In this document: positions 32,708 to 34,403 of the stretch, one piece after another | Position numbering within the stretch: the stretch's first letter is position 1 | Layout: each line of letters begins with the position of its first letter | Source: Paramuribaculum sp. | Lineage (GTDB): Bacteria; Bacteroidota; Bacteroidia; Bacteroidales; Muribaculaceae | Assembly (NCBI GenBank): GCA_029060545.1 | Contig: JAIDTT010000036.1 | Coordinates: 1 to 34,403, forward strand | Direction: 5' to 3' | DNA: 34,403 nucleotides | The notes under the pieces: model-generated | Database searches by the model: none | What the model saw: the letters and a program-made list of their open reading frames with translations, nothing else | Told to the model about the DNA's origin: nothing | Made by a program: the position numbers and the translations under genes

Positions 32708-32746
32708 TAATCGAGGCATAGATAAAATTTTTTTGAAAAATATGTG

Positions 32747-32776
32747 TTAGGCCGGCCAATCCCGGCCTTAACTTTG
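32747..32776 (+). promoter_or_regulatory. Promoter of repeat-element copy 1
   Basis: TAACTTTG at 32769-32776, with TTA at 32747-32749 at a 19-bp spacing and an A/T-tract UP-like block just upstream. The spacer is nearly one inverted repeat (AGGCCGG/CCGGCCT around CCAATC, 32749-32768), which could be an operator or a stem. Confidence 0.6.
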
Positions 32777-32779
32777 TCC

Positions 32780-32880
32780 ACATAAACCCAAACAACCGAC
32801 GCATTGCGTCAGCCAGGATCGGAGGCTTGTAGGGAAGATTTTCAAATCTTCCGCCTGTAGCGCCTGCCTCCGTCCCCCTC
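32780..32880 (+). ncRNA. Predicted structured RNA, copy 1
   Basis: After the promoter comes TGCGTCAGCCAGGA, then a stem: GGA (32816-32818), one bulged base, CGGAGGC (32820-32826), pairing with GCCTCCG (32866-32872) and TCC (32873-32875). Inside sits a second hairpin, GGAAGATT/AATCTTCC (32833-32852). No protein start or long frame follows the promoter on this strand. The ends are guesses, and no named RNA family is claimed. Confidence 0.45.
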
Positions 32881-32961
32881 AAATCCGCGACTGCTGCATC
32901 TTCCGCGTCAACGACCTTGAAGTATTCTTGTGAAATGTCCTCATAATCCAGATATTATCAC

Positions 32962-32969
32962 TACCTTTG
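32962..32969 (+). promoter_or_regulatory. -7 element directly before the serine hydrolase gene
   Basis: TACCTTTG ends four bases before the ATG at 32974, so the transcript should begin at or next to the start codon. There is no TTG at -33. Confidence 0.55.
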
Positions 32970-32973
32970 TATT

Positions 32974-34113
32974 ATGAAAAGGCTCGCATACATACTCATT
33001 TCGTTAGTGTTTATTCTTACAAGTTGCACCACATTCAGGTCTATCAAATGTGGAAATCCGTCAACTGACACATATCTAAATTTTGCGCTTGATACAATAT
33101 CAGCAAAAGAAAATCCCAAAGAGGTACTGATTTTCGACTCTAACCATTATCGTTATTTTGAAGACTCAAAATTTTCAGGAGGTCTTTTTAACGGAGAAAC
33201 CATTGGAGAATATTTTTCGCGTGTTAGAGGCAATGGTGCGCTACTGATAGTTCGCAATGATACTATTCTTCTCGAAAAATATTATGGTAATTTCTCAAAA
33301 CTCTCACCGTCCAATATATTCTCTATAAGTAAAGCCGTAACTGCGTTGTTGTGTGGGATTGCCGTAGACGAGGGATATATCTCAATTTCTGAACCTATAA
33401 CGAAATATATTCCTGAGCTGAATAATGCAGACTCAATGTTTCAGAAGCTCACAATTGAGCATCTTCTTGATATGCGAACCGGTCTTGATTTTCAGGAAAG
33501 TTATGGCTGGAATCCATTATCAAAAATGGCTAAGTTATACTACGGCAATAACGTAGTCAATCAATTCAAAAAACTGCATTTCAAGTCTGAGCCCGGAACA
33601 TCACATTATTATAATTCTATGGCAACCGCATTGTTAGGGGTTGTTATTGAAAGAGCTGTTGGTGTACCTTTTTCACAGTACTTGCAAGAAAAAGTATGGA
33701 AACCGCTTGATATGGAAACCGATGCTTTTATTTCTCTTGATGACTCCAAACACCGACAGGCAAAAGCCTATGGCGGTTTAGTGTCTAACGTAAGGGATTT
33801 GGCAAAAATCGGTCGTCTATATATAAATAAAGGCACTCATAATAATCAACGTATTGTAAGCGAGGAATGGATAGATCGTTCTACTCATTCATCTCTTGAG
33901 AACGAAGCATACTCATTCGGTTGGAACAATATCATTATAAGAGTAAACGGTAAAGATATTGTTACTCCACGATTTTTTGCATTAGGATTATTTGGTCAAG
34001 TATTATTTTGCGACCCGGAACAGAATTTGATTTTTGTTACTCTTGGAGAAAAGAAAGGCTCCGAATATCATCTCCTATTCGATGATTTTTGTAATTTAAT
34101 CTCACAGGAATAA
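32974..34113 (+). CDS. Serine beta-lactamase-like hydrolase lipoprotein (PF00144 type)
   Basis: A 379-aa envelope lipoprotein. The signal peptide is MKRLAYILISLVFILTSC with the lipobox Cys18. The fold is that of class C beta-lactamases, esterases and DD-peptidases. The nucleophile motif SxxK is S117-I-S-K120, the second motif YxN is Y212-Y-N214, and the third (KTG/HxG-like) position appears as ALGLFGQ, without the usual His or Lys. True beta-lactamase activity is therefore unproven, and esterase or D-amino-acid peptidase activity is as likely. The gene is strikingly AT-rich with A/T-ending codons, unlike the GC-rich genes before it, which suggests recent transfer. It lies between two copies of a repeated element. 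Confidence 0.85.
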   Translation: MKRLAYILISLVFILTSCTTFRSIKCGNPSTDTYLNFALDTISAKENPKEVLIFDSNHYRYFEDSKFSGGLFNGETIGEYFSRVRGNGALLIVRNDTILLEKYYGNFSKLSPSNIFSISKAVTALLCGIAVDEGYISISEPITKYIPELNNADSMFQKLTIEHLLDMRTGLDFQESYGWNPLSKMAKLYYGNNVVNQFKKLHFKSEPGTSHYYNSMATALLGVVIERAVGVPFSQYLQEKVWKPLDMETDAFISLDDSKHRQAKAYGGLVSNVRDLAKIGRLYINKGTHNNQRIVSEEWIDRSTHSSLENEAYSFGWNNIIIRVNGKDIVTPRFFALGLFGQVLFCDPEQNLIFVTLGEKKGSEYHLLFDDFCNLISQE

Positions 34114-34142
34114 GCGTCTTTTCGCAACCGTCATAAGGTCCA

Positions 34143-34150
34143 TAACTTTG
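34143..34150 (+). promoter_or_regulatory. -7-like element before a 31-codon frame
   Basis: TAACTTTG on the plus strand, 19 bases before an ATG at 34170. The -33 region has TTC rather than TTG. Confidence 0.4.
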
Positions 34151-34169
34151 AGCCAATAAACTCAATGTT

Positions 34170-34265
34170 ATGGACTTCTCTTTTTCCGACCTTAATTTTA
34201 ACTCCGTAGCAACCCTGCCCGGCTTCGAGGCTCGCGTAGCTTTCACCTCAATCGTCGCTCATTGA
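34170..34265 (+). CDS. Possible 31-aa small protein
   Basis: The frame begins MDFSFSDLNFNSVATLPGFE and ends at a TGA at 34263-34265. A -7-like element precedes it at a fitting distance, and its stop touches the start of repeat-element copy 2. The peptide has no membrane segment or signal peptide and matches no family I know. It could equally be chance sequence in a non-coding leader. Confidence 0.3.
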   Translation: MDFSFSDLNFNSVATLPGFEARVAFTSIVAH

Positions 34266-34289
34266 TGAAATTTTTTTTAAAAATATGTG

Positions 34290-34319
34290 TTCCCCCACCC
34301 CAAACCCCTCGTACCTTTG
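34290..34319 (+). promoter_or_regulatory. Promoter of repeat-element copy 2
   Basis: TACCTTTG at 34312-34319 with TTC at 34290-34292, a 19-bp spacing exactly as in copy 1, and the same A/T-tract block upstream. Confidence 0.6.
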
Positions 34320-34322
34320 CAC

Positions 34323-34403
34323 CATCAAAGCAAAGGAATCACTGCGTTAGCCGGGAACGGAAGCTTCAGCGCCGCAGGCGCCTGCTTCCGTCCACCCTCA
34401 AAA
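34323..34403 (+). ncRNA. Predicted structured RNA, copy 2
   Basis: GGA (34354-34356), one bulged base and CGGAAGC (34358-34364) pair with GCTTCCG (34384-34390) and TCC (34391-34393). The inner hairpin is GCGCC-GCA-GGCGC (34369-34381), unlike that of copy 1. Against copy 1 the outer stem shows one compensatory change (A-T here, G-C there). The 3' end may lie beyond the window. Confidence 0.45.

Follow-up and report, generated by a model that had tools for sequence, protein, structure and literature searches.

In REP/BIME-RAYT (TnpA-REP) systems, hairpins are dispersed in extragenic DNA, some of them in tandem, and are linked to one small protein. According to the accessible part of one source, there is generally one full-length tnpA-REP gene per REP type (PMC6006769). 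The pneumococcal BOX repeat, boxA-(boxB)n-boxC, consists of variable tandem modules between fixed ends and is predicted to form RNA stem-loops (PMC3049150), and in TnpB elements a pseudoknotted structured RNA, the omega RNA, overlaps both the 3' end of the gene and the right end of the element (PMC10097598); both descriptions follow the accessible text of these papers. The repeats analysed in this study share features with all three. Similar to REP/BIME-RAYT, they include dispersed extragenic palindromic repeats, some in tandem, and one small linked protein, here called p237. Different from REP/RAYT, however, p237 had no Y1 HUH transposase match in Pfam or NCBIfam, and the gene itself is multi-copy. 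Similar to BOX as described in the accessible text, the present element is a composite repeat with variable tandem modules and fixed ends, a likeness of plan; no encoded protein is described for BOX in that text (PMC3049150), whereas the present element has a gene and a predicted 3' pseudoknot. That pseudoknot lies over the 3' end of the gene and the right end, as the accessible text describes for the IS200/IS605 TnpB omega RNA. However, p237 had no RuvC nuclease match. Finally, p237 is homologous, by sequence profile, to the N-terminal ATPase core of the phage terminase large subunit (TerL, gp17-type). Different from TerL, the present protein is ~240 amino acid residues long, multi-copy, and without a recognisable Walker A or a C-terminal nuclease. 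Features are thus held in common with REP/RAYT, BOX and TnpB omega RNA, as far as the accessible sources describe them, and of the defining features of REP/RAYT and TnpB that were checked only some were found. No nameable element type fits the arrangement, and no Rfam, Pfam or NCBIfam family fits. In the literature covered, mostly outside subscription journals and in part as partial text, nothing on these repeats was found in print.

The window, which is the whole stretch of DNA analysed (34,403 nucleotides), is the entire contig C40 of a 2.10-Mb genome in 109 contigs. Its features relevant to this study are as follows.

32725 to 32748, + strand: left-end A/T tract and TGTGTT (-33 region) of copy 1, from sequence, with flanks compared by eye
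32749 to 32768, + strand: promoter spacer of copy 1, GGCCGG...CCGGCC class, one of two spacer classes among 31 distinct promoters
32769 to 32776, + strand: -7 element of copy 1, TAACTTTG, from sequence and promoter comparison
32805 to 32883, + strand: hairpin unit of copy 1 with the TGCGTCAGCC box and CCTCAAA end, from fold and genome matches
32816-32826 with 32866-32875, + strand: stem arms of copy 1, with a 29-nt inner hairpin module in the loop
32884 to 32933, + strand: gene A, end of a small prophage gene (last ~15 codons plus stop), outside the element, from comparison with other genomes
32974 to 34113, + strand: PF00144 serine hydrolase gene, outside the element, with its own TACCTTTG at 32962-32969
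34170 to 34262, + strand: gene B, start of a portal-like prophage gene (first ~30 codons), outside the element (PHROG portal, E 3.7e-5)
34268 to 34291, + strand: left-end A/T tract and TGTGTT of copy 2, from sequence and promoter comparison
34292 to 34311, + strand: promoter spacer of copy 2, CCCCCACCCC class, from promoter comparison
34312 to 34319, + strand: -7 element of copy 2, TACCTTTG, from sequence and promoter comparison
34343 to 34402, + strand: hairpin unit of copy 2 with TGCGTTAGCC and CCTCAAA, from fold, genome matches and unit alignment
34354-34364 with 34384-34393, + strand: stem arms of the copy 2 hairpin unit

A first-pass annotation, made from the sequence of the window, had described two direct copies of a promoter-driven structured RNA 1.54 kb apart. 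Our results confirmed that the two copies are real. They lie 1543 bp apart at 32717-32776 and 34260-34319, and their 22-nt core, with up to 3 mismatches, had two matches in the window versus 0.01 expected by chance and 43 in the genome versus one in the reversed control. The parts that it listed are all present. The A/T blocks are identical at 26 of 28 positions, the promoter boxes TGTGTT and TAnnTTTG are 20 nt apart in either copy (19 nt counted to the preceding base), and the TGCGTYAGCC boxes are at 32805-32814 in copy 1 and 34343-34352 in copy 2. The 10-bp stem has a one-base bulge and a pair that changes in a compensatory way (G-C/A-T), and the CCTCAAA ends are at 32877-32883 and 34396-34402. 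The differences in spacer and inner hairpin are also real and can be put more exactly: the spacers represent two recurrent classes, and the inner hairpin is a 29-nt loop module. The RNA fold z-scores of copies 1 and 2 were -4.01 and -2.25. Both copies belong to the A/T-tract left-end type, among whose copies the sequence upstream of the A/T block varies when compared by eye. Copy 1 has neither p237 nor a right end downstream. Copy 2 runs to the contig end (34,403), with a possible remainder beyond, and contig C74 of the sister genome G022 closes with a left end like that of copy 2.

Further copies, whose absence from the genome was to count against the first-pass reading, were numerous. Besides the 43 core matches, searching the genome with the DNA of copy 2 yielded 54 matches at E ≤ 10, of which 50 had E ≤ 1e-3 and many were near contig ends. 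In many copies p237 starts downstream of the hairpins, and past p237 the copies read in this genome have a fixed right end followed by unrelated genes. At E ≤ 0.01, p237 had 34 genome matches: the two in contigs C56 and C88 are full length, and the rest are partial and mostly at contig ends. A 28-nt right-end pattern had 42 matches in this genome, 10 in G022 and none in the reversed control. The anatomy, as read in C56, C88 and relatives, is an A/T-tract left end, the TGTGTT-20-TAnnTTTG promoter, at least one hairpin unit, p237 and the right end. Thus, the statement that no protein start follows the copies is wrong as a rule: p237 follows many of them, and the ATG of the hydrolase lies ~90 nt after copy 1. 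Taken together with the results below, these data show a dispersed element with a fixed plan and ~40 copies, a TerL-related protein under selection and a right end with a covarying predicted pseudoknot, and both copies in the window are left ends of this ~1-kb element, not free-standing small RNAs. The right ends also bear on the assembly. In 38 of the 42, a contig end is reached within 1 kb on the body side of the element, so that the element would account for the fragmentation of the genome into many contigs.

The copy in C76 has its promoter and hairpin joined straight to the right end, with the gene gone. Simple repeats of the ATCGTGCAT/TTGTGCAT type occur before p237 and again before the right end in L061, L063, L066, L070 and L089, and recombination between such repeats could delete p237 as at C76. 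In addition, a second set of dispersed hairpin modules (GACATCGCTTCGCGATGT, GGGATGCACC..GGTGCATCC) often follows the right end (L009, L026, L091, L100 and L115), so that these intergenic regions look mosaic.

Among the loci of this genome with TGTGTT and TAnnTTTG, 31 distinct promoters were found; 29 have a spacing of 20 nt and the other 2 one of 19 nt, and their spacers included the two recurrent classes. Forty hairpin units were aligned on a 15-bp structure, in which standard pairs filled 90.2% of cells, versus 31–45% when the structure was slid by 1–3 columns and 85.9% in shuffles. Of the five units of the 29-nt-insert type, window copy 1 alone is included in this alignment, L085:1522 was left out because no 3' arm was detected, and MAFFT placement gives three rows a falsely unpaired look in the inner helix. 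Two stem pairs changed repeatedly on both sides among the 40 units: one is G-C in 35, A-U in 4 and G-U in 1, and the other is C-G in 18, G-C in 17 and broken in 5. The covariation score of 0.097 was reached by 0 of 500 shuffles, whereas 98 of 500 had at least as many as the 3 pairs seen here to be altered on both sides. The refuting conditions on further copies and covariation that the first-pass annotation had set thus turned out in its favour. Some hairpin units are in tandem, ~73 bp apart. Units were also found without promoter or gene, so that the hairpin looks like a separate, REP-like repeat. The inner hairpin of copy 1 is the 29-nt module within the loop and was seen in four other units; this module (TTGTAGGGAAGATTTTCAAATCTTCCGCC) is at 32827-32855 of the window, and the other loops are those of L099, L107, L112 and L044.

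No match to p237 was found in Pfam, NCBIfam or PDB sequences, its PHROG matches were at chance level only, and the domain searches revealed no recombinase, nuclease or reverse transcriptase in it. Relatives were found stepwise, with the one in G016 at 52% identity, then six loci in G072, then a six-row profile. At E ≤ 1e-3, this profile matched 25 of 225 genomes of the host's family (≥90% complete). In 13 of these 25, from five genera, small frames were found at E ≤ 1e-8, several genomes having multiple copies (e.g., G064, G180, G193 and G072). The remaining matches were weak or in frames of TerL length (e.g., G262, G278, G292, G300 and G308). The matches in G042 (frames of 352–535 amino acid residues) and the weakest rows were left uncounted. 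Weak matches in G085, G082 and G036 were discarded as relatives, as they were in unrelated frames or had internal stops. Up to 12 candidates per genome were scored in the family search and 7 in the order-wide search, so absences from either are not firm.

A profile of 16 diverse small members (A3) was compared with a profile of five terminases from relatives (A4), which itself matches T4 gp17 structures at 6.7e-17. The two aligned by hhalign with a probability of 96.3 and an E-value of 1.8e-9 over the TerL ATPase core, the alignment covering TerL columns 118–295 only. Moreover, the A3 profile, which contains no TerL, matched 16 of 392 genomes of the order, namely that of the host and 15 others (three in the same family). 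In all 15 others the match was in frames of 605–729 amino acid residues with KARQxGxST (15 of 15), and all six of the long frames tested match terminase PHROGs. The matches outside the host's family were all in frames of TerL length. The long TerL proteins scanned had nothing above Pfam or NCBIfam cut-offs. No sequence recognisable as the Walker A of TerL, KARQWGGST, is present in the alignment of the 16 small proteins, which, with mostly 210–255 amino acid residues, are too short to include the C-terminal RNase H-like nuclease domain. In a PHROG scan of eight proteins, matches were obtained for the TerL control and, among the seven relatives, for L186 alone (to phrog_2074, of unknown function, at 3.8e-5). 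An exact 19-base pattern had no match in viral contigs, and tblastn of the relative L167 found no match in phages. The AlphaFold models had a mean pLDDT of 73 for p237 and 79 for a relative. The p237 model matched P-loop NTPases weakly, with a best E-value of 2.4e-3 and none at E ≤ 1e-3, the viral library included, and the model of the relative had 8 P-loop NTPase matches at E ≤ 1e-3, the best at 1.8e-4. By profile comparison, p237 thus resembles the TerL ATPase core without a recognisable Walker A.

The mean dN/dS within genomes was 0.06–0.32 in nine genomes. Copies that are truncated or bear stops or N-runs (e.g., L187, L198, L202, L204-L206, L237 and L252) are omitted from these averages, and diverged pairs are given apart. 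The copies of C56 and C88 had a dN/dS of 0.03 at a dS of 0.22. Among the diverged pairs, dN/dS was 0.63 for L242/L243, both inside G187, and 0.58 for p237 versus the protein of G016, while L240/L241 had a dS of 1.86 and a dN of 0.42. Judged by these substitution rates, p237 is under selection and many copies are old.

The right ends of ten further genomes have the order GCGG, loop, CCGC, spacer, strand, an AAG-like stretch and a TTGACAT-like motif. This pattern fits 34 of 39 loci, the five without a right end found being L202, L204, L248, L252 and L253. In controls, it fitted 1.1 loci on average and at most 6 over 100 shuffles, as well as 2 of 39 reversed and 1 of 39 upstream windows; it also matches 13 of 39 opposite-strand windows. 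The loop can pair with the downstream strand to form a helix 2, the strands of which are GCCGTGC/GCACGGC in G193, G187 and G186, GCTGC/GCAGC in G180, G064 and G171, GCCATG/CATGGC in G024 and G023, and TCGTGC/GCACGA in the genome of the window; just 3 contiguous pairs can form in G157 and G072. Since MAFFT misplaced the strands of G023 and G024 in an alignment of the right ends, helix 2 was tested by comparing the pairing of matched strands with that of mismatched ones. One representative was taken per genome, for 11 genomes, and the longest pairings of matched strands summed to 63 bp, a total reached by 1 of 20,000 reshuffled pairings, relatedness ignored. The right ends of otherwise diverged elements are thus predicted to share an H-type pseudoknot whose helix 2 covaries between genomes. 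A UAG stop abuts the first helix in the host genome, G193, G187 and G157. In G186, G180 and G064, however, the frame continues through the pseudoknot and ends at the UGA of the TTGACAT-like motif, so that conservation there could be partly coding. At the gathering threshold, Rfam had no match in the window, and for 10 right-end loci at E ≤ 5 it gave two tRNAs and sX5 (E 3, below the gathering score), none of which fits. A possible likeness of the right end to the pistol ribozyme was not borne out by the Rfam search.

A shared unit of ~0.8–1.15 kb was found in G180 (7 copies), G072 and G193. The ends of the element could be set against unrelated flanks in these three genomes and in that of the window, and right ends also in seven further genomes. 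Terminators of neighbouring genes were seen by eye close to many element ends. G180 has its own, unrelated tandem hairpin units, located upstream of the -7 box, and such hairpins are absent from G072 and most G193 copies read. As far as sequence comparison goes, these results show the same plan, carried by mostly unrelated sequence, in several genera of the host's family. Two further observations concern single copies. After one G193 right end, sequence like a second left end is present at ~1777-1815 of L205 (element orientation), as if in tandem, and a repeated GGGGCGGGGGATATGG sequence stands on both sides of the G016 copy (L117, 1318 and 2328).

Eight of the 10 right ends of G022 are at the same places as in G000, the genome of the window, and within-genome dS was 0.17–0.38 in 8 of 9 genomes; thus, movement looks rare. 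At one site, the insertion in contig C4 of G022, the matching place in G000 lies inside contig C19 and is without the element. In G022, a bin of 63% completeness with extra sequence there, the left flank of this site could not be located, so this comparison, the one site on which presence/absence rests, is one-sided, covering the right flank only. Comparison of the gene order next to the C56 copy across 34 genomes of the genus revealed no clean empty site, and G022 shares the C56 insertion. No terminal inverted repeats or target-site duplication, the marks of a classical insertion sequence or MITE, were made out by eye at the ends in this genome, G180 and G193. We infer that the element moves and that p237 acts on its right end.

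On balance, we lean towards a dispersed ~1-kb self-propagating element, the p237 of which recognises its own right end. A transcript from the left-end promoter would encode p237. The protein would be a nucleic-acid-binding P-loop relic that recognises the pseudoknot at which its own message ends, or that fold in single-stranded DNA, and carries the right end to new locations, many of them next to gene terminators. The enzyme for cutting or copying would be supplied from elsewhere in the cell, or be present in a form so far unrecognised. The hairpin units would be a second, REP-like repeat that multiplies within the leader and tunes p237 expression. If this is true, the element would be of a type without a recognised recombinase, in which a phage packaging motor has been recruited for another role. 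The proposed partnership between a small protein and the pseudoknot at its own 3' end lends itself to direct testing. A bolder proposal can only be put forward tentatively, as a possibility that we rather doubt: a new class of bacterial mobile element, in one gut family so far, in which the sole protein, a domesticated terminase ATPase core without its nucleotide-binding motif, reads the covarying pseudoknot that ends its own transcript or single-stranded DNA, perhaps guided by the adjoining flank, to place copies.

Purifying selection in most compared pairs, the old copies and the 8 of 10 sites common to sister genomes would also suit a host gene family, in which multi-copy TerL-like proteins serve a cell function, for example as decoy subunits against phage packaging, with their own promoter and structured leader and tail. 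The TerL sequence link, including the match of L186 to a phage PHROG, is consistent with such a family as well. However, ~40 right ends are scattered beside unrelated genes, the C76 copy keeps the left part and the right end without the gene, one site is present in one genome and absent from the other, and the versions differ strongly between species, all of which render a host family unlikely. A retroposon, whose RNA would be reverse-transcribed in trans by an enzyme that recognises the 3' pseudoknot, with p237 as an RNA-binding partner, is quite unlikely: neither poly(A) nor a target duplication was seen by eye and the left ends are not visibly 5'-truncated, whereas the left-end promoter, the conserved structured 3' end, the precise right ends and the variable tandem units leftward are what speaks for it.

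The two readings that came from the first-pass annotation fared worse than the description behind them. Its multi-copy, promoter-like and structured character with some covariation stood, and the constant spacing of the promoter-like sites, the covarying stem and a copy 1 without p237 downstream are all consistent with a stand-alone small RNA. However, many copies have p237 downstream of the hairpins, some hairpin units lack the TAnnTTTG promoter, and G072 and most G193 copies read keep the plan without such hairpins. As the hairpins in many copies form the leader of an element that codes for a protein, a stand-alone small RNA is not supported and is very improbable. The suggestion that the copies are the boundaries of a cassette carrying the hydrolase drew on their flanking of that gene at 1.54 kb. 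Scraps of prophage genes, however, separate both copies from the hydrolase, which has its own TAnnTTTG, and no hydrolase is beside the other copies read. In G022, the interval from the acetyltransferase gene to the second copy is occupied by other DNA, and both copy 1 and the hydrolase are thus missing. With these results, cassette boundaries are not supported; the idea has next to no probability and is held refuted for the window. Lying between scraps of prophage genes, the hydrolase is cargo without relation to the element, and genes A and B adjoin each other in G024.

Two minor observations concern these scraps. The first comes from 32884-34262 of the window and from L320, L321 and L322: in G021, a different stretch of ~1.7 kb is found between the same pieces of genes A and B, and portal-start scraps recur in other genomes. 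An inverted repeat (15 nt, 93%) surrounds the start of the portal scrap at 34138-34175 and recurs, with letters changed, in other genomes (L319, L320 and L322-L325).
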